From contig JAFLTS010000006.1 of NCBI GenBank assembly GCA_022509185.1, positions 43,331 to 107,330 of the forward strand: a stretch of DNA of 64,000 nucleotides. Reading direction: 5' to 3'. Under the pieces are notes generated by a model, which worked only from the letters and a program-made list of their open reading frames with translations, made no database searches and was not told the origin of the DNA. The stretch is from Muribaculaceae bacterium (GTDB lineage: Bacteria > Bacteroidota > Bacteroidia > Bacteroidales > Muribaculaceae). Below, one piece after another: positions 7,677 through 51,310 of this stretch. How positions within the stretch are numbered: position 1 is the first letter of the stretch; every line of letters starts with the position of its first letter. A program made the position numbers and the translations under genes.

Positions 7677-8630
7677 ATGCCTAACAGATCTCTTCAGGAG
7701 GTGAGGAAGGAAATCCTCAAAACCAGGAAGGTGACCCCGGAAATTCTTAAAGAATTAGAAGATATATATGCCGATCTAACTCAGATAGATTTTGAGAAAG
7801 CCGATGTATTGTTTCGTATCAAACAGCTCAATCATATCGAGCTGACGGAAAAATACAAGGATTTTTTTGTAGATAGAATAGCATCTTTCCTATTGGGATA
7901 TGGTCAGAGTCCTGATGAAATAGATGCTGAGGAAGGGAAATGGCTTAGAGGCCGTATTATCCACCGCGATCAATATGACAAGGCTTTGTTGGAAGAGCTT
8001 GAAAACAGGCTTGAGAATATAGACCGGAAGTTGCCTAATTATTTGAAAAAAAATAATTATCTGATAGCTAAATTTGAGGATATCTTATATTATTCTCGGT
8101 ATTTTGCCTTCATCGCGGTAGTTGGAGCTATATTGTCTTCTTTTATATTGTTTATCCAGGGTTTCGGCTTGATTATAAAGGGTCTGGTTGGATTTTTCAG
8201 AGACCCTTATGAAAGGTATGAAGCGTTGTTTGAACAGCTGGTCTCTTCGGTCGATGTGTTTCTATTTGCCTTAGTGTTGATAATTTTCGGAGTGGGAGTG
8301 TATGAGCTTTTTATCGCAAATGTAGATCCGGAAGACAAACCTGCCGACACACGTCCCACATGGCTTAAAATTAGCAGTGTAGATGATCTAAAATCCTCTC
8401 TTGGCAAAGTTATATTAATGGTGTTGATTGTTTCTTTCTTCAAGCATGTTCTCGAAATAGATGCAGAGATGTGGAGCCCTACGGCTTTGCTTTATTTAGC
8501 CATAGGTATCTTACTGATAGCCGGTGCCCTCTATCTGACACACAAATCAAGTTCTGAGGGTGAATCCAAATCAAAATCAAAGGAAGTTGCCAAAGAAGCT
8601 ATTCGAGAAACAATCGAAGAAGCCCTTTGA
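7677..8630 (+). CDS. YqhA/UPF0114-family membrane protein with N-terminal extension
   Basis: A 317-residue integral membrane protein from the ATG at 7677; an in-frame GTG at 7635 lies inside the upstream hairpin and is unlikely. Residues about 1-130 are soluble and charged (helical, LEELENRLENIDRKL). Four membrane helices follow: ISSFILFIQGFGLIIKG, VFLFALVLIIFGVGVYELFI, VILMVLIVSFFKHVLEI and LLYLAIGILLIAGALYL. The stretch DVFLFALVLIIFGVGVYELFI followed by TWLKISSVDDLKSSLGKVI is characteristic of UPF0114. The C-terminus is a Ser/Lys-rich cytoplasmic tail. The family's function is unknown. The extra N-terminal domain is larger than in the short E. coli protein. Confidence 0.75.
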   Translation: MPNRSLQEVRKEILKTRKVTPEILKELEDIYADLTQIDFEKADVLFRIKQLNHIELTEKYKDFFVDRIASFLLGYGQSPDEIDAEEGKWLRGRIIHRDQYDKALLEELENRLENIDRKLPNYLKKNNYLIAKFEDILYYSRYFAFIAVVGAILSSFILFIQGFGLIIKGLVGFFRDPYERYEALFEQLVSSVDVFLFALVLIIFGVGVYELFIANVDPEDKPADTRPTWLKISSVDDLKSSLGKVILMVLIVSFFKHVLEIDAEMWSPTALLYLAIGILLIAGALYLTHKSSSEGESKSKSKEVAKEAIRETIEEAL

Positions 8631-13075: not shown

Positions 13076-15083
13076 ATGAAAAATTTCATTGTCCCTATAA
13101 TATTGATTAACGTCTTTCTTAATAACTCAACTTTAAATGCTTATAATTCCTGGGAAAAAGAAAATATAAAGTTTCAGGTGGATCTTAAGGGTGAGGGCAT
13201 CGAGATTCCAAAAACTCTCTATGGCATATTTTTTGAAGATATAAATTTTGCCGCTGATGGAGGTTTGTATGCAGAAAAAATAAAGAACAGATCTTTTGAT
13301 TTTCCGAATCCATTAACAGGCTGGATACCTTTTGGAGAATTCGAAATTTTAAATGACGGGCCTTTTGAAAAAAATCCCAATTTTTTGCGTTTAAAATCCC
13401 CTGATCATCACGAAAAACATACAGGAATTGAAAATGAAGGTTTTTTCGGTGTAAGCTTTGAAAAGGACAAGGAATACAGGTTCAGTGTTTGGGCTAAAGT
13501 TCCTTCAGATGGTAAGGCAAAACTTAAAGTGCAGCTTACAGATCCCGGCTCCTTATCAGAAAGCCAGGATATGGGATCTTCTTATATGGAAATAGAGGGA
13601 AAAGATTGGAAAAAATATTCAACCTTAATCAAAGCCCATGAGACTGTTTCCAAAGGAAGGCTTACTATTTTCCTTGTCAAACCGGAAGAGGCTGTAGACC
13701 TGGAACATGTGTCTCTATTCCCGATTGATACATGGAAAGGTCATGAAAACGGATTGAGAAAAGATTTAGTGGAAAAGTTAGACTCATTACATCCGGGAGT
13801 CTTGCGTTTTCCCGGGGGATGTATTGTTGAAGGCACTGATCTGAACAGCCGTTATCAATGGAAAAACAGTATCGGTCCTATCGAAAACCGTCCTTTAAAT
13901 GAGAACAGATGGCAATATACTTTCCCTCAGAGATTTTATCCCGACTATTATCAAAGTTATGGTTTGGGATTCTATGAATTCTTTCTATTGAGTGAAGAAC
14001 TTGGAGCTGAACCTTTACCCGTGTTAAGCGTGGGCTTAAGTTGCCAGTTCCAAAACAAAGATGAAAAGGCACATGTTCCTATTGACAGTCTTCAGCCTTA
14101 CATTGATGATGCTCTCGATTTAATAGAATTTGCAAATGGAGATTCAGACTCATACTGGGGTAAGGTTAGAATTGGAATGGGACATCCGGAGCCGTTTAAT
14201 TTAAAATATATAGGATTAGGAAATGAACAATGGGACACTTTGTATACCCAGAGGTTAAAGCCTTTTGTTAAAGCAATCAAGGAGAAATATCCGGAAATAA
14301 AAATTATAGGTTCTTCAGGACCGGATTCAGAGGGAAGAACAATTTGATTTTCTCTGGGAGGAGATGAAAAATATTGGAGTAGATTTTGTGGATGAACATT
14401 TCTACCGACCTGAAGACTGGTTTATGAATCAAGCCTCAAGATATGATATTTATGACAGGAAGGGGCCAAAAGTTTATGCGGGAGAATATGCCTGCCACGA
14501 AAGAGGAAAGAAATGGAATCACTTTAATTCCGCATTAATGGAGGCAGCTTTTATGACCGGTTTAGAGAGAAATGCCGATGTTGTTCCTATGTCCACCTAT
14601 GCACCCCTTTTTGCTCATGTGGAAGGATGGCAATGGCGACCGGACATGATCTGGTTTGATAATCTTAATTCCGTGGCTACAAGCAGTTACTATGTTCAAT
14701 CACTCTTCTCCAACCATAAGGGAGAAAAAACAGTACCTATCACTTTGAATGGAGAAGTGATTTCCGGGAAGGAAAACCAACGGGGTCTGTTTGCCACTGC
14801 TTCCGTTGTGGAAAATCCCGAAACCTTGATCATAAAAATTGTAAATACAGATAATAAGGCACAAGTTTCAGAATTCGAAATTAATGGATTGAACCCTGAT
14901 AACAATTTTTCCTCTTTAAAGGTAATTACCCTGACATCTTTAGATCCTAATTCTGAAAATTCTTTAGAGAATCCCACATTGATTCAACCCCAAGAGGAAA
15001 CATCCGAAATTGACCTTTCATGTAATTCGAGTTTCCGGATCTATCTTCCTCCCCTTTCTCTCTCGATAATCAGATTGGAATAA
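13076..15083 (+). pseudogene. GH51 alpha-L-arabinofuranosidase, interrupted by a frameshift
   Basis: A secreted arabinose-releasing glycoside hydrolase split into two frames. The signal peptide starts at the ATG at 13076 (MKNFIVPIILINVFLNNSTLNA). The family start KTLYGIFFEDINFAADGGLYAE is followed by a carbohydrate-binding-like insert (about 13330-13720), LRFPGGCIVEGTDL, and the acid/base Glu in YIGLGNEQWD (about 14217). The first frame stops at 14347 after SSGPDSEGRTI. The second frame continues exactly with EQFDFLWEEMKNIGVDFVDEHFYRP, and carries the nucleophile Glu in VYAGEYAC (about 14484) and the C-terminal beta domain. One extra base in the A/G run at 14332-14339 explains the break. Repaired length is about 668 residues. 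It may be a real mutation or an assembly error. Confidence 0.85.
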
Positions 15084-44184: not shown

Positions 44185-47100
44185 TTATTCGTTTTTTAAG
44201 CCATAATACATTGCCTTCCCCATTTCATGAGCAACTTTTTCGTAGAATGATTGGTCTTCAAAGAGTTTTGAGAAGGCATCCATTTGTTCTATGTAGCATT
44301 TTTGGGCTATTTGCTCAAATATCTTGGGGAATATGTTGTTAGTGAACATATTGACATCGGAATTTTTTGCTTGCTTCTTGAGTTTCTTTTCCTCTTGTCT
44401 GGCTTTATCGAATATGGTCTCAACAATCACTCGGTCTGCTTCAGTGAATTGCCCTTGATACATCAGATTGATTTTGTCAATGATGTTGTCAAGTAAATCC
44501 CTCTTTTCTTCAACCATGTTTCCGTCACCTCCGTTTTCTCCTTTCACTGTCTTCTCTTTCTTCGTAGGTGAAAGGTTTATCTTTTGTGTATCTTTCACTT
44601 TGAAAACATGGTGTTCCAATCTTAATTTATTTTCCAAATCAACTTTCTCATGGGGATTCTTCGGAATCACCTTGAATAGATATTCACAGAAAATATAAGT
44701 CTTGAAAAGTTCCTTATCAAAAGTTCTTTCAATCTGTGCCATAAATGCATAAAAACGAATGAAAGCTCTTACATAGTATCTTACCTTGAATCGGTCTTCT
44801 TCATCAAGAGCGTGGAAATCATCCAACACAGGCTTTAAAAGACTTGTAAGTTTACCAATAGCCTTATCATCTTGCTCAGACTTAAATACGTCATAGACCT
44901 TTTCTTCGGTCTCTGTTCCCCATAGATGATAAGCCTTCAAGTTGTTTAGATATCTATATACTATGTTTACATCCACCGGTTCCGCCAATAAAGTATCTTC
45001 GTAGAATGGTTTGAAGGATGCCTGGATCTCTTCTGCGGTGTTTACGAAATCCAATACAAAAGTGTCGGTTTTTCCTTTGGCGCTTCTATTTAGACGTGAT
45101 AAAGTCTGAACTGCTTTTACCCCTCTCAAGCCTTTTAGAACGAACATTGTATGCAATAGAGGTTCATCGAAACCAGTCTGATATTTCTCCGCTACAATAA
45201 GAATGTTATACAAATCGCTCTCGAAATACATCGGAAGAGCCGATTCTGAAATCTTATAAGTATCGGTGGAATTGAGTTGTACCTCAGTATATTCTTTTCC
45301 GTCAAGATTTACAGTACCGGAAAATGCCACTAAAGGTTTTACATCCCTATATCCCTTCTTCTTGCAATATTCTTTCATGGCAAGATAATATCTCACTGCC
45401 TGAAGTCTTGAAGGTGATACAACCATCGCTTTAGCTTTACCATCCATCTTGTTTAAGGTTATTTCCCTAAACTTTTCTACTATAAGTTCCACTGTATGCT
45501 CAATCACATACTCATGGCTATCATGGTAAGCCTTTATCGCTCTTGTGGCTGGCGGTTCTTCATACTCCGGATTATCTTTTATGGCCTTAACTATCTTATA
45601 GGAAGTTTCTACCGGCGTAAAGAACTCTAACACATCAAGTATGAAACCTTCATCTATGGCTTGTCTCATGCTGTAGTGATGGAAGGCATCATACTGTGGG
45701 TTTCCTTCTTCATCCGTACCCTTGTAAGTTCCGAATGTTTGTATGGTCTTGGGTTTGGGAGTGGCTGTGAAAGCATAGAAATATTGGTTCTTGTGCTGTC
45801 CTTGAGTTAGAAGTGTCTCCACCATCACATCCATTTCATCAAGAATCTCTTCCTCTGTTGTTCCATAGACTTCTGCCATTTCAGCAACCGCACTTTCGGT
45901 ATCAGCAAGAGCCGCTTTTAATTTCTCCGCTGATTTTCCGCTTTGGCTTGAATGGGCTTCATCCACAATTATTGCGAATTTCTTCCCCTTATGGTTGTCT
46001 AGTTCCTTATATATGAGAGGGAATCTGTGAAGGGTGGTGATGATGATTCTTTTCTTATCGTTTATAGCATCCCTCAATGCGGAAGAATTGTCGGAATCGG
46101 TTATTATGGCTATCTGTCCTTCGTAATGGTCGAATCCCAATATGGTCTCTTGCAATTGGCGGTTAAGCACCCTTCGGTCGGTGATAACGAAAACTGTTTG
46201 GAATAAAGGTTGTTCAATTGATAGTGACATGCCGTGGCATGTCTGAACGGTTAACTCGTTTGCTGACATCGCACGCGATGTCCCTACAGAATGATGCAAT
46301 GAAGCCAATCTATAAGCCAGCCAGGCGATTGAATTTGACTTTCCGCTACCAGCTGAATGTTGGATTAGGTAATTCTTACCTTCCTTACTGTTTTTTGTGT
46401 CGTTAACCAGTTTTTCTACCACATCAAGTTGGTGGTATCTTGGGAATATCAGCCTTGTTGTCTTTTTCTTGACTTGTTTTCCGTTTTGAAGTGAGACTTT
46501 TTCTTTAACCTCTTTGCTGATATATCTTTGAAGGATGGAGAGTAAGGTGTCTTTTGACAATACTTTCTCCCAAAAATAAGAAGTCACATAGCCATTGGGA
46601 TTAGGTGGATTTCCTTCGTCACCGACATTACCGGCCCCATTAGAACCTTGATTGAAGGGAAGAAAATAGGTCTTCCTGCCTTGCAAATGAGTGGTCATAA
46701 CCACTTCGTATAGATCAGCTGCAAAATATACAAGGAAACGATTATTGAAACGGAAACAGAACTCTTTTTCGTCCCTATCTTCCATGAACTGCCTTTTGGC
46801 ATTGGCTACCGATTGATTCGTAAGTTGGTTCTTCAACTCAATAGCTACAAAGGGAATCCCATTTAAGGAGATTACCATGTCAATAGTATTGTGATTTTGT
46901 TCGGAATAGGAGAATTGTCTTGTTACAGTAAGAATGTTGCTGTTATATTTCTCTACCAATTCGGAATTGAGATTTGAAGCGGGTGCGAAATAAGCGAATT
47001 TGATAGGAATTCCTCGGTCTTTGATACCGTTCCTCAATACATATATAAGTCCATTGGCATCTACATTCTGTTGGAATATATTGTATAATTGCTTCTCTGC

Positions 47101-47289
47101 CTTATCGCCATAGACATTCTTATACCGTTCCCAAACTTTTGGTTGTGTCTTCTCTATAAAGGATATTAACACAGGCATATCAATAGCCTTTGCCTTATCA
47201 TAAGTGGCTTGATTACCCTTTATATAACCTCCATGATTTAGAAGATAAGATTCAATGTCGGCTTCAAAGTTCTTTTCCTTCGTTTCCAT
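44185..47289 (-). CDS. hsdR: Type I restriction enzyme, R (HsdR) subunit, with an in-frame REPIN insertion
   Basis: 1034 residues. ATP-driven translocase and nuclease of a type I restriction system. The N-terminal nuclease domain has TIDMVISLNGIPFVAIELKNQL (the Asp and ExK of the PD-ExK fold). The motor domain has the Walker A HSAGSGKSNSIAWLAYRLA (about residue 313), IIVDEAHSSQ (DEAH box), FYAFTATPKPKT and ILIVAEKYQTGFDEPLLHTMFV. Between Walker A and VFVITDRRVL lies an extra stretch, HHSVGTSRAMSANELTVQ and TCHGMSLSIEQ (about residues 330-358). It is coded by two inverted REP palindromes. The enzyme may still fold if this is a surface loop. Last gene of the operon, eight bases after the RAYT gene. 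Confidence 0.94.
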   Translation of the reverse strand: METKEKNFEADIESYLLNHGGYIKGNQATYDKAKAIDMPVLISFIEKTQPKVWERYKNVYGDKAEKQLYNIFQQNVDANGLIYVLRNGIKDRGIPIKFAYFAPASNLNSELVEKYNSNILTVTRQFSYSEQNHNTIDMVISLNGIPFVAIELKNQLTNQSVANAKRQFMEDRDEKEFCFRFNNRFLVYFAADLYEVVMTTHLQGRKTYFLPFNQGSNGAGNVGDEGNPPNPNGYVTSYFWEKVLSKDTLLSILQRYISKEVKEKVSLQNGKQVKKKTTRLIFPRYHQLDVVEKLVNDTKNSKEGKNYLIQHSAGSGKSNSIAWLAYRLASLHHSVGTSRAMSANELTVQTCHGMSLSIEQPLFQTVFVITDRRVLNRQLQETILGFDHYEGQIAIITDSDNSSALRDAINDKKRIIITTLHRFPLIYKELDNHKGKKFAIIVDEAHSSQSGKSAEKLKAALADTESAVAEMAEVYGTTEEEILDEMDVMVETLLTQGQHKNQYFYAFTATPKPKTIQTFGTYKGTDEEGNPQYDAFHHYSMRQAIDEGFILDVLEFFTPVETSYKIVKAIKDNPEYEEPPATRAIKAYHDSHEYVIEHTVELIVEKFREITLNKMDGKAKAMVVSPSRLQAVRYYLAMKEYCKKKGYRDVKPLVAFSGTVNLDGKEYTEVQLNSTDTYKISESALPMYFESDLYNILIVAEKYQTGFDEPLLHTMFVLKGLRGVKAVQTLSRLNRSAKGKTDTFVLDFVNTAEEIQASFKPFYEDTLLAEPVDVNIVYRYLNNLKAYHLWGTETEEKVYDVFKSEQDDKAIGKLTSLLKPVLDDFHALDEEDRFKVRYYVRAFIRFYAFMAQIERTFDKELFKTYIFCEYLFKVIPKNPHEKVDLENKLRLEHHVFKVKDTQKINLSPTKKEKTVKGENGGDGNMVEEKRDLLDNIIDKINLMYQGQFTEADRVIVETIFDKARQEEKKLKKQAKNSDVNMFTNNIFPKIFEQIAQKCYIEQMDAFSKLFEDQSFYEKVAHEMGKAMYYGLKNE
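46226..46287. repeat. REPIN (two inverted REP palindromes) inside hsdR
   Basis: First palindrome GACATGCC-GT-GGCATGTC (46226-46243), second GACATCGC-AC-GCGATGTC (46265-46282) followed by CCTAC. The second has the standard foot sequence (GTAGG on the minus strand); the left foot has drifted to TGAAC. The whole unit is read through in frame by hsdR. Confidence 0.75.
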
Positions 47290-47296
47290 GTATGAA

Positions 47297-47821
47297 TTAT
47301 TTGTTGAAACAATCAGAGTCCCATTTCGTTACATTATTTTCGATATATTCTGCAATTTTATTACCATCTTTATTTCCTCTTATCAAATGGTCGTGATAAC
47401 GAGATTGCCATGCAAATTCCTTATTAAAAAAATGAATTTGTTTAGACACCGCCGATTTTAATGAAGCAATATATCGGCTTAAAGTAGGGACATGGCGTGC
47501 CATGTCAGGATTTGAACGTAATGATGGGTTTGGATTCCTTTGTTCATTAGGGAAGACATCGCACGTGATATTCCTACATATAACGATTGCATGTAAATGA
47601 TTTGGCATTACCACAAATAAAGGGATTTCTATATTTTTATGATGTGTGTTACAATTATCCAATTCATTTCTTAATATTTCACCCTCCCTGGATAAATGCA
47701 TCTTTTCATTAAATATTTCCCCAAAATAATGAATTTTATCCTTTGTGCAAATTGTAACAAAGAATATCCCTTGGTCATAATCAATCCAACCGGCACGAGG
47801 AGTTATTCGGGGATTACACAT
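47297..47821 (-). CDS. REP-associated tyrosine transposase (RAYT, Y1/IS200-like)
   Basis: 174 residues from the ATG at 47821; the frame is open to a GTG at 47875 that lies in a REP palindrome and overlaps hsdS. The Y1 transposase features are YDQGIFFVTICTKDKIHYFGEI, IPLFVVMPNHLHAIVIC (the HUH motif as His-x-His), and the C-terminal FAWQSRYHDHLIRG then IAEYIENNVTKW, with the catalytic Tyr expected in one of these helices. RAYTs cut and join single-stranded REP DNA and recognise a GTAG foot. The gene itself carries a REPIN (47485-47577). It sits inside the hsdS-hsdR gap on the same strand and is flanked by matching REPs. Confidence 0.88.
   Translation of the reverse strand: MCNPRITPRAGWIDYDQGIFFVTICTKDKIHYFGEIFNEKMHLSREGEILRNELDNCNTHHKNIEIPLFVVMPNHLHAIVICRNITCDVFPNEQRNPNPSLRSNPDMARHVPTLSRYIASLKSAVSKQIHFFNKEFAWQSRYHDHLIRGNKDGNKIAEYIENNVTKWDSDCFNK
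47485..47577. repeat. REPIN inside the RAYT gene
   Basis: Left REP: GTAGG foot (47485-47489) and palindrome GACATGGC-GT-GCCATGTC (47489-47506). Right REP: GACATCGC-AC-GTGATATT (47555-47572), degenerate, with foot CCTAC (47573-47577). The two face each other about 48 bases apart. The RAYT frame passes through both (DMARHVPTL and ITCDVF). Confidence 0.75.
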
Positions 47822-47855
47822 ATCTAATTGTTCCTCATGATTATATTTGACAATT

Positions 47856-49208
47856 TTATTTTGCTGACATGGCACGCCATGTCCCTACGGATTTTTTGCC
47901 TGTTACATATTCATAGATTATGGATTTCTTATAATCCTTCAATTCCTCAATCTTTTGTTGTTTCAATTCAATAAGGCTGTCAATTTCAGAACATTTCTTG
48001 TCAAGAAAATCCGCTATTTCTTGTTGCTCGGAAAGTGTAGGTAATCCAATACTGATATTTTTTATTTTTGTGGATGTAATTAGGGGTTGTGCTACAGATT
48101 CATTTAATCTATTTAGATTATAACCGACAAGAAGATACGATAAAAAATAAGGATTTTGATTAGTTTTACAAATTAATGAATTATCAGTTGCCCACGCATC
48201 TTCTTTTAAAAGTGTTATACATCCGCATCTTGCTCCAACTCTACCTATAATAATATTCAGTGCCTTTACATTGGAGTTATTTAAATAACCTATCATTTCC
48301 CCACCTCCAAAAACGGGATATAGACCTTCTTCTAAAATATTTTCTTTAGATATTCCATCGCCCGAACCAATCTCTATGTAGTATTTTAATTTAGAAACTT
48401 TCCAATGCTGTGGGATTTCGCCTATCCATTCGATACCGCTGTCTTTCATTGGAATCGGTTGTAGGGACGTACGGCTCGTACGTCCGATATGATTTTTCCC
48501 AGTGACTGTTTCCGAGATTATTGACTGCTTATAAGCCTTCAATTCCTCAATCATTTTGTTTTGAAGAGTCACCAATTCATCTATCTCTCCACATTTCTTA
48601 TCCAAAAATTCAGCAATTGCTTTTTGCTCTTGTAAAGGGGGTAATAATACCTCACATTCCTTAAAAACTTCTCTTGATAAAGTTTGACGAATAGTTCCAT
48701 TACTATTAGATGAAAAATATTGCCATATTAATGCGTTGTTACATAGATATTTACTATATTTTAAATCAATCAAATTAGAATTATTCTGTCTAAAGCGTAT
48801 CACATGGTAACTATATGCTGTATTGGGTATATCTTCCATTACAACAGCAGACATTCCTATATCTTCTTTAGTTTCAGAACTTGGTGTAAAAATCAAATCA
48901 CCTATTTTAATTTTGTGTTCATTAATCTTATCTAAAGACGCAGAAACTACCATGTATTCTTTGTCATTCCTCAATTCATGGGAAGTATTATTATAAACAT
49001 CTACATAATTAATAATTTTCAGTAAATGCTCATTTTCAATTATTTTTTTATCAATACCACTTGCAGTAAAATCACCTAAAGTACGCATCTTTCGTTTTTC
49101 CCAATCTTTCGGAATCTCACCAATCCACGGAATACCGCTGTCCTTCATTTCCCTTTCCATAATTCTTCTCTTTTTGCTGACATGGCACGCCATGTCCCTA
49201 CCATTCAT
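47856..49208 (-). CDS. hsdS: Type I restriction-modification specificity subunit (HsdS)
   Basis: 450 residues with two target-recognition halves, each starting MKDSGIPWIGEIPKDWEKRK or MKDSGIEWIGEIPQHWKVSK and ending in a coiled helix (LLPPLQEQKAIAEFLDKKCGEIDELV, GLPTLSEQQEIADFLDKKCSEIDSLI). It sets the DNA sequence recognised by the complex. The ATG at 49208 overlaps the hsdM stop (ATGA), but the first 16 residues (NGRDMACHVSKKRR) come from a REP. The older start may be ATG at 49160 or 49148. A second REP in the mid region codes GRTSRTSLQP between the halves, and a third forms the C-terminal end (GTWRAMSAK). Confidence 0.93.
   Translation of the reverse strand: MNGRDMACHVSKKRRIMEREMKDSGIPWIGEIPKDWEKRKMRTLGDFTASGIDKKIIENEHLLKIINYVDVYNNTSHELRNDKEYMVVSASLDKINEHKIKIGDLIFTPSSETKEDIGMSAVVMEDIPNTAYSYHVIRFRQNNSNLIDLKYSKYLCNNALIWQYFSSNSNGTIRQTLSREVFKECEVLLPPLQEQKAIAEFLDKKCGEIDELVTLQNKMIEELKAYKQSIISETVTGKNHIGRTSRTSLQPIPMKDSGIEWIGEIPQHWKVSKLKYYIEIGSGDGISKENILEEGLYPVFGGGEMIGYLNNSNVKALNIIIGRVGARCGCITLLKEDAWATDNSLICKTNQNPYFLSYLLVGYNLNRLNESVAQPLITSTKIKNISIGLPTLSEQQEIADFLDKKCSEIDSLIELKQQKIEELKDYKKSIIYEYVTGKKSVGTWRAMSAK
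47866..47888. repeat. REP palindrome at the hsdS-RAYT junction
   Basis: GACATGGC-AC-GCCATGTC (47866-47883) followed by the CCTAC foot. It supplies the last residues of HsdS and the upstream GTG of the RAYT frame. Confidence 0.8.
48461..48484. repeat. REP palindrome of a second type inside hsdS
   Basis: GTAGG foot (48461-48465) and palindrome GACGTACG-GCT-CGTACGTC (48466-48484). The arm differs from the GACATGGC type but foot and layout are the same. It is translated in frame between the two recognition halves. Confidence 0.75.
49179..49201. repeat. REP palindrome at the hsdM-hsdS junction
   Basis: GACATGGC-AC-GCCATGTC (49179-49196) followed by the CCTAC foot. It lies in the first codons of the extended hsdS frame. 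Confidence 0.8.
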
Positions 49209-51016
49209 CGCCCGATTATTTTAGCCATCAATTCTTGTTCTTTCTCATCAAGCGACTGAAGGGATGCAAATATCTCTTCGCTCTTTCTCGGAGCAACATA
49301 TTTGTAGAACTCTCTTGTGAAGGGTATCTCATAACCTACCTTAGTTTTCTTTTCATCTATCCATGCGTCAGAAGCGTAGGGATAGACATTCTTTACCATG
49401 TAGGTTTCTATATCTTCTTTCCATGGAATTGTTTCAGTATCTCTCTTCCCACTGTCGGCTTGCGGTTTTCCTTTCTTCAAAATAGGATTTCCGTTTTCAT
49501 CTGTAATAGGTCTTTCCACAGTGACTTTGCTAAATTTGAAATCCTCAACATCCTTTATCTTAGATTCCGCAATTATGCTATCGGGATTGACATGGGGCGC
49601 CATGTCCCTACGAATCTCACCGTTTTCATAATAATAAACACCATCCTTGAACTCATCGTAGGCTTTTGAGATAAGTGATATACATTCATCTGTGAACTCA
49701 TTTCTTTTGCTTCCGATAGATTTTCTTCTCTTGACTCCACATTTTGACGCATCTATCAATTGAACCTTGCCGACTCTTTCTGCTGATTTTTCCTTTGTGA
49801 TTACCCAAATATAGGTTGCAATGCCAGTATTGTAGAACATATCATTCGGAATCTGAACAATGGCTTCAAGCCAATCATTTTCGAGCAAGTAACCTCTGAT
49901 ATTGCTTTCTCCACTTCCAGCGTCTCCCTTGAATAATGGTGAACCGTTCTGAATTATAGCCATTCTTCCGTTATCTTTCAATTTGGCAACACCATTCAGA
50001 ACAAACAACTGCTGACTGTCTCCGATCGCAGGAAGCCCAGGGGCAAAACGACCTGCTTCACCTAACTTATGCTCGGCTTCTACTGCTGATTTCTTGTTTT
50101 TCCATTCAATCCCAAATGGGGGATTTGAGATAATATAATCGAATTTATAACCAGAAAATTTATCATCGGAAAGAGTATTGCCATGTTTCATATTCTCGGC
50201 GTTTCCTCCCTTGATAAGCATATTTGCTTTGGCAATGGCGAAGGTCTGCTCGTTAAGTTCCTGACCGAACTCCGTCAACTGTGCATCCTCATCAATCTCA
50301 TGAAGCTTTTCGCTCAGACAATCCAACATCTGTGAAGTTCCCATAGCCATGTCATAGACACTCGCTGTTATGCCTTCCTCTTGAAGTTCCTTACGTTTTG
50401 GAGCAACAAGCAATTCAGCCATCAGATAGATAATATCCCTTGCAGTGAAATGTGCCCCCGCTTGTTCATCATAACTTTCAGAGAATTTCCTCACCAGTTC
50501 CTCGAATATATAGCCCATATCTACCGCTGAAATCTCATCAGCACCCATGTAAGCCTTCTTTGTATTGAACTCAGCTATTACGTTGTATAGGATTCCGTTA
50601 TTATCAAGTTTGGTTATCTCCTTATCGAAATCGAATTTTTCTATTACATCAATCACATTATTTGAGAAATGATTGAGATAACTGCGGAAATTGACAGCTA
50701 TATTTTCAGGGTCTGAAAGAAGACCTTCAAAAGTGAAAGGTGAGGTGTTATAGAAATCATAACCGGAAGCACTACGCAAGAATCCGTCTTTCACCGCTAA
50801 TCCTCGTTTTTCAAGCATTTCATTGGTATCCATAACCTTTTGCTTAGTTGGTGCTAAAGTATCGCTAAAACGCTTTATAACGCACATAGGAAGGATTACA
50901 TTCCCATACTCATGTGGCTTGTATGTGCCTACAAGTTTGTCCGCTATAGCCCAGATAAGATTTGCCTTCTCTTGAATGTTTACAGTGGTTCTTTTTGAAA
51001 GTTCTTCTGTTCCCAT
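49205..51016 (-). CDS. hsdM: Type I restriction-modification DNA methyltransferase subunit (HsdM)
   Basis: 603 residues. N6-adenine methyltransferase of the type I complex. An N-terminal helical domain (LIWAIADKLVGTYKPHEYGNVILPMCVIKRF) is followed by the catalytic domain: SASVYDMAMGTSQML-type motif I (residues 222-231), FTARDIIYLMAELL before it, and ISNPPFGIEWKNK with the NPPF motif IV (298-301). Motif I is altered from the common DPACGTGGML. A REP near residues 470-476 adds RRDMAPHV, in a variable loop. It is the first gene of the operon and has its own -7 box. Confidence 0.93.
   Translation of the reverse strand: MGTEELSKRTTVNIQEKANLIWAIADKLVGTYKPHEYGNVILPMCVIKRFSDTLAPTKQKVMDTNEMLEKRGLAVKDGFLRSASGYDFYNTSPFTFEGLLSDPENIAVNFRSYLNHFSNNVIDVIEKFDFDKEITKLDNNGILYNVIAEFNTKKAYMGADEISAVDMGYIFEELVRKFSESYDEQAGAHFTARDIIYLMAELLVAPKRKELQEEGITASVYDMAMGTSQMLDCLSEKLHEIDEDAQLTEFGQELNEQTFAIAKANMLIKGGNAENMKHGNTLSDDKFSGYKFDYIISNPPFGIEWKNKKSAVEAEHKLGEAGRFAPGLPAIGDSQQLFVLNGVAKLKDNGRMAIIQNGSPLFKGDAGSGESNIRGYLLENDWLEAIVQIPNDMFYNTGIATYIWVITKEKSAERVGKVQLIDASKCGVKRRKSIGSKRNEFTDECISLISKAYDEFKDGVYYYENGEIRRDMAPHVNPDSIIAESKIKDVEDFKFSKVTVERPITDENGNPILKKGKPQADSGKRDTETIPWKEDIETYMVKNVYPYASDAWIDEKKTKVGYEIPFTREFYKYVAPRKSEEIFASLQSLDEKEQELMAKIIGR
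49589..49611. repeat. REP palindrome inside hsdM
   Basis: GACATGGG-GC-GCCATGTC, nearly perfect (49589-49606), with the CCTAC foot. Read in frame as RRDMAPHV. Confidence 0.75.
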
Positions 51017-51051
51017 TTATGCTTGATTAAAGAGAATAATATTCCAATATA

Positions 51052-51059
51052 CAAAATTA
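51052..51059 (-). promoter_or_regulatory. -7 box (TAATTTTG) of the hsdM operon
   Basis: The minus strand reads TAATTTTG, 36 bases upstream of the hsdM start at 51016. The rest of 51017-51401 holds only the REPIN and the pyrG terminator. Confidence 0.5.
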
Positions 51060-51152
51060 ACTATTATCCCCTTATTTCTTTCCGTTTAACTTAAAACCAA
51101 ACCCAAATAATAAATAATGATTATCAGTAAAAATACGTAAAGTATTGAAAGT

Positions 51153-51235
51153 AGGGATGTACGACTCGTGCGTCTTATTGAATGCAGAGTATTTTACTCA
51201 TTATTTTTTGGATACACGAGCCGTGTGTCCGTACA
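51153..51235. repeat. REPIN upstream of hsdM
   Basis: Left REP: GTAGG foot (51153-51157) and GATGTACG-ACT-CGTGCGTC (51158-51176). Right REP: GATACACG-AGC-CGTGTGTC (51212-51230) and foot CGTAC (51231-51235). It is a drifted pair of the GACGTACG type, in head-to-head orientation with an AT-rich centre. Confidence 0.7.
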
Positions 51236-51310
51236 TTTGAACAGGATAATCATAATAAAAAATGGTTAGTATTTTCGAATAATCAGTTTGACAAAGATCA
51301 TTAAAATACT

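Follow-up and report, generated by a model that had tools for sequence, protein, structure and literature searches.

A REPIN-RAYT system within a type I restriction-modification operon of a Muribaculaceae bacterium, and the recurrence of RAYT genes beside restriction-modification genes

Introduction

Genes for REP-associated tyrosine transposases (RAYTs), named after the repetitive extragenic palindromic (REP) sequences around them, have been portrayed as domesticated genes that are present in single copy and inherited vertically, and whose benefit to the cell is still to be defined (PMC8049555, PMC8266576). A 64,000-nucleotide stretch of a Muribaculaceae bacterium genome (GCA_022509185.1, contig JAFLTS010000006.1, positions 43,331 to 107,330 of the forward strand; hereafter the window) raises the question of why such a gene, together with its palindromes, resides inside a type I restriction-modification (R-M) operon. 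The assembly examined comprises 2.19 Mb in 59 contigs and is 88% complete. An initial annotation, made from the letters of the window, had proposed a REPIN-RAYT system (REPINs being inverted pairs of REPs) embedded in this operon, had called the local burst of REPs unusual, and had suggested that it could diversify restriction enzymes. We find that the system is real, with three REPINs in and around an operon of gene order hsdM-hsdS-RAYT-hsdR, and that systems of its kind are partly known already. What is new is how RAYT genes recur inside R-M operons, in some of which REPs have invaded the R-M genes.

Results

Architecture of the operon

The operon lies on the minus strand. Its hsdM, hsdS and hsdR genes adjoin with open frames, as in a type I R-M operon, HsdR is classed as REase_I by PADLOC, and seven bases separate the end of the RAYT gene from hsdR. 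The genes are as follows.

44185..47289, minus strand: hsdR, 1034 aa, with HSDR_N, SWI2_SNF2 and T1R_D3-like domains; carries a 23-codon net REPIN insert
47297..47875, minus strand: RAYT (TnpAREP) gene, with a profile match to 4er8; likely start Met at 47821 by our reading
47856..49208, minus strand: hsdS, 450 aa, Methylase_S in two stretches and two target-recognition halves; REPs at the start, in the middle linker and at the end
49205..51016, minus strand: hsdM, 603 aa, with N6_Mtase and HsdM_N; holds one family-A REP, a 13-codon net insert

The Y1 transposase gene noticed earlier among the palindromes is, judged from its sequence, this RAYT gene, despite the missing match of its product to Pfam Y1_Tnp. 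That profile fails on the RAYT family and was rejected as a census tool in favour of protein searches. When the family profile was compared with solved structures, E. coli TnpAREP 4er8 was the sole match (whole-sequence E 5.5e-5, with no individual stretch significant by itself). In a 24-row alignment, both catalytic residues are kept, namely the HUH motif NHLH at 92-95 and Tyr177; the motifs read NHLH, WQ and YIENNV, with NHIH, NHFH and NHVH also found among relatives. Protein search found no further RAYT relatives in this genome, the operon copy being the sole one. The closest relative, L065, is 87% identical; no hsd gene was found within the 8 kb upstream that were examined, and its contig stops 173 bases downstream.

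At least nine CCTAC-flanked palindromes had been claimed for 46.2-51.3 kb. Ten arms are present there, in and around the operon, and the GTAGG/CCTAC foot is intact on eight of them, the feet of the arms at 46220 and 51210 being decayed. They form three inverted pairs of 68-94 bp (in hsdR, in the RAYT gene and upstream of hsdM), which we class as REPINs, and four singles (at the start, middle and end of hsdS, and in hsdM). GTAG-foot REPs thus lie near the RAYT gene, and six of the seven elements are inside genes, in agreement with the earlier count of five or more within hsdR, hsdS, hsdM and RAYT. The palindrome types first given needed correction: the palindromes are real and fall into two REP families, A (seven arms, stem GACAT[G/C]GC) and B (three arms, stem GACGTACG), of which only A is the type found inside the RAYT gene and inside its relative L065. 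Family B, found in the middle of hsdS and upstream of hsdM, resembles the REPs that surround another RAYT (48% identical) of the same genus at locus L086.

46220..46287, minus strand: family-A REPIN inside hsdR, arms 46220-46243 and 46265-46287; missing in the same-genus genome G194, net +69 bp
47484..47577, plus strand: family-A REPIN inside the RAYT gene, arms 47484-47506 and 47555-47577, between the HUH and Tyr motifs
47866..47888, minus strand: family-A REP encoding the HsdS C-terminus, immediately before the stop codon
48461..48485, plus strand: family-B REP in the linker between the HsdS halves, about 27 bp when aligned to G194
49179..49201, minus strand: family-A REP at the HsdS N-terminus
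49589..49611, minus strand: family-A REP inside hsdM, net +39 bp
51151..51234, plus strand: family-B REPIN upstream of hsdM, arms 51151-51174 and 51210-51234; no counterpart in G194

Both arms of the RAYT-internal REPIN also occur in the L065 RAYT, and REP-like peptides occupy the same position in most relatives of the 24-row alignment. A scan of the window for a TAGG foot plus stem returned six GTAGGG elements, all at the operon, and one chance-like match at 13097, against 0-3 matches per 64 kb in ten first-order Markov controls. An orientation bias, in that the four family-A elements within hsd genes point along transcription, was dropped since it rests on those four elements.

Concentration of family-A elements at the operon

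Searching the 2.19 Mb with the family-A pattern (up to 2 mismatches) gave 12 matches, and the reversed pattern, used as control, gave 0. Five of the 12 copies lie within 3.35 kb at the operon; the others are three in an array at C12:124.7k, two at C1:231.9k, one at C12:143.6k and one at C59:28.6k. Counted by places, five of nine fall in the 3.35 kb (binomial about 1e-12), or four of eight when the RAYT's own copy is excluded (binomial about 4e-10). The family-A palindromes are therefore concentrated at the operon and not spread evenly over the genome, which bears out the local accumulation described earlier. Seven REP places examined elsewhere in the genome (four A, three B-like) are all intergenic and none is within a long gene, a call that sets aside as spurious the short open reading frames (ORFs) of 80-106 aa overlapping three of them. 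Two intergenic regions hold direct arrays of family-A-like REPs, C12:124699-124818 with a period of ~48 bp (locus L011) and C1:231949-232049 with a period of ~39 bp (locus L004). A looser pattern, TAGGGACN{9,15}GTC, was dropped from counting because control counts reached or exceeded the true counts in most of 36 genomes.

Counterpart operons without the inserts

The operon of G194 matches the one described here with 88-91% DNA identity in hsdR and hsdM, and its alignment shows no REP at any position. The two differ in length by a net 69 bp in hsdR, 39 bp in hsdM and about 27 bp in the middle of hsdS, and the start and end of hsdS differ by REP segments; the G194 HsdS, without any REP, is 38% identical to HsdS here. 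G194 has a RAYT elsewhere in its genome, outside the hsd operon, and its hsdS-hsdR slot holds instead a 218-aa gene (L135:6462-7118) that we read as ORF6N-like. In genome G010, another gene that we read as ORF6N-like lies between hsdM and hsdS (L092:4812-5414). The two positions point to cargo slots in these operons that unrelated genes occupy.

The inserts are also absent from the hsd locus of G100, a genome of the same genus with no RAYT match, so that the same inserts were seen neither there nor in the RAYT-free operon of G194. None of the 120 best HsdR homologues (8000 scored) carries the hsdR insert, and none of the 120 best HsdM homologues (4206 scored) carries the hsdM insert. The residues flanking the inserts differ from G194 as well, which indicates that the inserts are not brand new. 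Synonymous divergence (dS) to G194 is 0.605 for hsdR and 0.488 for hsdM while synonymous differences in the neighbouring pyrG are saturated, which shows that the operon itself moved between lineages.

Selection on the insert-bearing enzymes

The inserts of hsdR and hsdM are whole codons in multiples of three. The ratio of nonsynonymous to synonymous divergence (omega) is 0.032 for hsdR, 0.045 for hsdM and 0.124 for the RAYT compared with L065; hsdR and hsdM are under strong purifying selection. With G017 as outgroup, lineage-unique amino-acid changes number 14 here versus 11 in G194 for HsdR and 5 versus 8 for HsdM, and four of the 14 adjoin the HsdR insert. In structure models, the HsdR insert is predicted as a coil of low confidence that follows the helix after Walker A and precedes the next strand, and the HsdM insert as a coil between two strands; both models are of low overall confidence (mean predicted local distance difference test scores 54.6 for HsdM and 55.4 for HsdR) and lend this loop placement weak support.

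RAYT genes beside R-M genes in other genomes

Searched with this RAYT at E up to 1e-3, the 247 genomes of the family yielded matches in 83, some of them weak. The family set comprised 80 of roughly 120 listed places, the locus described here and two named relatives, giving 83 distinct loci; a related-locus search of genome contigs yielded three relatives, and L067 was left out as it shares a contig with L088. The order set (28 loci from other families) and the phylum set (29 loci) took one locus per best-matching genome with 1.5 kb on each side, so that both lean to close relatives. In all, 17 of 140 RAYT loci from the Bacteroidota are in or beside R-M operons, 15 of them firmly of type I or III. 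The family contributes 7 of its 83 loci, each located within a type I or III operon or immediately next to one, the order 5 of 28, and the phylum 5 of 29 (L233, L236, L253, L256 and L259).

Family, this operon: hsdM-hsdS-RAYT-hsdR
Family, L092: hsdM-ORF6N-hsdS-RAYT-hsdR
Family, L069 and L072: mod-RAYT-res
Family, L157, L162 and L170: RAYT-mod
Order, L192: hsdM-RAYT-hsdS
Order, L202 and L206: RAYT-hsdR
Order, less firm: L201, helicase, RAYT, N6 methylase; L200, Eco57I-type methylase

One of three plasmid matches is R-M-linked as well. In Monoglobus pectinilyticus (Clostridia), the RAYT has a gene for a site-specific DNA-methyltransferase on either side, followed downstream by one of the DEAD/DEAH helicase family, and these flanking genes match the type III Mod and Res seen here. 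The RAYT shares the strand of the R-M genes in all 18 linked loci (plasmid locus included), and 137 of 191 neighbours in the family and order sets share the RAYT strand. Counted by eye, the 247 family genomes hold about 119 HSDR_N matches (E up to 1e-10) and about 55 RE_endonuc matches (E up to 2e-18), or roughly 0.7 systems per genome; on this rough baseline, 0.16-0.31 of the 83 loci (roughly 0.2-0.4%) would be expected to be R-M-linked, versus seven observed. When 189 of the 191 neighbours were scanned with Pfam and PADLOC, R-M genes came out as the class that recurs most among the 25 families listed per half; polysaccharide synthesis is also recurrent (5 of 94 in the first half).

On a tree of the 98 RAYTs with a usable frame (from 111 loci), the R-M label changes 12 times, at least eight of these being forced by well-supported branches; each change may be either a gain or a loss, and the tree's bootstrap is unsettled. 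A 128-row tree made by a quicker method gave 17 changes with at least eight forced, similar to shuffled labels. The idea that the RAYT/hsd pairing is unique was refuted, tblastn with the operon's own proteins having missed R-M types later seen via Pfam. At L259:888-2542, three tandem RAYT copies stand between hsdM and hsdS, one stop-free and two with one internal stop each.

REPs inside R-M genes

Among type I operons read at length, REPs occur inside hsd genes in four of six with a RAYT (the operon here, L092, L210 and L211; not L208 or L209) and in none of 28 without one (Fisher 3e-4). The RAYT-free set consists of hsdR relatives and four operons chosen by us, and it numbers 28 since L129 and L134 are one hsdR (genome G080). 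In G010 (L092:6743-10895), REPs encode VGLHPGAA-like peptides that are repeated in the RAYT N-terminus and in HsdR. For type III operons with a RAYT, REPs were found in L069, L072 and L157, and none in L170 and L162, both of which are partial. Automatic matches in the mod genes of L157 (8512), L162 (8735), L219 (5634) and L226 (3093) were taken as ordinary coding sequence and excluded, those at 8512 and 8735 being one shared stretch of mod.

In the type III Mod protein, the linker between ERIRRAG and DxGFRVLKL holds a REP-derived insert in 6 of 13 spanning proteins (15 aligned), and the inserts derive from stems of several kinds. Two genomes of this alignment, G128 and G007, have no RAYT match. 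Across L072, L157, L219, L221, L224 and L227, the inserts have different stems and several share a GLFDD-like middle peptide, as if the arms had been replaced in place. A second shared site nearer the N-terminus carries the same RRDIALRC peptide in two genomes (L069, 3400; L227, 5606). L224 was set aside because it comes from the same genome as L162 (G006) and begins where the L162 mod ends, probably as one broken operon. That assembly break falls at the REP-bearing mod linker, and REPs in R-M genes may thus be under-counted in draft genomes. In a scan of 42 other RAYT loci, most REPs were no more than 500 bp away from the RAYT; farther ones occur in 12 loci, and at least one REP in a neighbouring called ORF in 10.

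Discussion

The palindromes set in frame within the operon, together with an R-M linkage above the estimate, lead us to regard it as probable, on balance, that the RAYT, once inside the operon, dispersed REPs of its own family through the adjacent genes, and that R-M operons are a recurrent landing site which it may use as a home. The RAYT would have entered the slot between hsdS and hsdR of a type I operon, and from there it may have moved REPs by single-strand HUH cleavage and joining, mostly near its own gene. Such cleavage and joining have been shown in vitro for other TnpAREP (PMC8266576). The inserts would survive where whole codons land in loops, linkers or ends, and purifying selection would then act on the insert-bearing enzymes. 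The linkage may persist because R-M operons are mobile, hard to lose and tolerant of cargo between their modification/specificity and restriction genes.

Several observations weigh against this explanation. Once four short-flank (1.5 kb) type I loci of the phylum, which show no hsd REPs, are added, the type I count falls to 4 of 10 (Fisher 0.003), and 11 of 18 R-M-embedded RAYT loci show no REP in their R-M genes, several of these loci being partial. Type III mod genes carry REPs with no adjoining RAYT in 3 of 10 comparators that we picked (L219, L221 and L227), so that action in trans or past loss of a RAYT also occurs. REPs lie in a neighbouring called ORF at 7 of 39 non-R-M RAYT loci (4 of 39 without short ORFs) and at 4 of 4 R-M loci in the same scan, which makes invasion of neighbours a general habit and not one special to R-M genes. 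The linkage baseline ignores defence islands and insertion tolerance, and related loci are not independent. Furthermore, no RAYT for the family-B REPs is present in the 88%-complete assembly, and a local RAYT is accordingly not needed for every insert; their likely source is a different RAYT, of the type found in G194 and absent from this assembly. Finally, no transposition was observed.

A rather unlikely alternative, and the strongest of those considered, is that the operon was imported with its REPs from a donor dense in family-A REPs, the local concentration being the donor's ordinary density with no local spread. The dS values with a saturated pyrG show that the operon does travel from lineage to lineage, and family genomes rich in the family-A pattern (up to 2 mismatches) exist: G135 with 95 matches, G179 with 40 and G186 with 33. 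However, this genome has seven more family-A copies away from the operon, all of them outside long genes, and most REPs at the 42 other RAYT loci are close to the RAYT, though with exceptions. Moreover, the donor too must have put five family-A elements in frame in one operon.

We hold it improbable that the REPs are retained because they are useful, recombination or length variation altering HsdS or HsdR. The three inserts of HsdS do delimit its two halves, the 23-bp copies at the two ends of hsdS (49179 and 47866) are identical, and 6 of 13 spanning Mod linkers contain REP-derived inserts. The middle HsdS REP nevertheless belongs to the other family, the specificity halves of G194 differ without REPs, and the insert positions may just be the most tolerant ones. 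The diversification of restriction enzymes put forward in the initial annotation finds no backing in the low omega of hsdR and hsdM, in the lack of a clear branch excess, in the lack of any rearranged allele, or in the divergent, REP-free HsdS of G194. Disfavoured and least likely of all is that the hsd genes are dispensable or decaying and gather inserts by chance: R-M systems are accessory and the other REP places examined in the genome lie outside long genes, but no frame is interrupted, the insert lengths in hsdR and hsdM are divisible by three, omega is 0.03-0.05, and the branch-specific excess is slight (14 versus 11 and 5 versus 8 changes).

The protein resembles TnpAREP subclass 2.4, or RAYT group 4, in its WQ and YIxNN motifs, in having little sequence past the Tyr motif, in the GTAG-foot REPs around its gene, and in the in-frame REP between the HUH and Tyr motifs, as far as the subclass is characterized in the sections of PMC6006769 drawn on here. 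The subclass motifs are NH[IFV]H, WQ and YIxNNP; here the HUH motif is NHLH, and V replaces P at the end of the Y motif. REPs lying in frame within subclass 2.4 tnpAREP genes, as a rule between those two motifs, were published in 2018 (PMC6006769), and RAYTs recur in R-M operons, so the term unusual needs qualifying. The words 'restriction' and 'methyltransferase' are absent from the main text of that paper, which does not describe R-M residence of RAYTs. The inverted REP pairs tied to a RAYT gene are like the REPINs of PMC3116915 and PMC8049555. In the parts of PMC8049555 considered here, REPIN-type repeats are extragenic, whereas most elements here are intragenic, and RAYTs are single-copy and vertically inherited, whereas the nearest relative L065 has no hsd gene in its 8 kb upstream. 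Intragenic REPs and Rickettsia palindromic elements, as covered in PMC3733652, are likewise in-frame palindromes in unrelated genes, many of them for DNA synthesis or repair; unlike those, the elements here are concentrated in one operon with its RAYT. The main text of PMC3733652 lacks the words 'restriction', 'methylase' and 'methyltransferase'. A search by title and abstract start, with subscription papers and preprints outside it, found no paper on RAYTs in R-M operons.

More broadly, and tentatively, RAYTs of this group may be recurring semi-selfish lodgers of type I and III R-M operons, entering slots beside or between modification/specificity and restriction genes, riding on the mobility and loss resistance of the operon, and writing REPINs into R-M proteins, including the reused Mod linker. 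The in-frame inserts and their empty counterparts provide a natural record of the sites where REPs settle, with the type III Mod linker used repeatedly. Repeated residence in R-M operons offers a testable answer to why RAYTs are retained, either by hitch-hiking on defence systems or by service to them. If RAYTs are indeed such lodgers, this would explain the persistence and spread of single-copy, non-mobile RAYTs.

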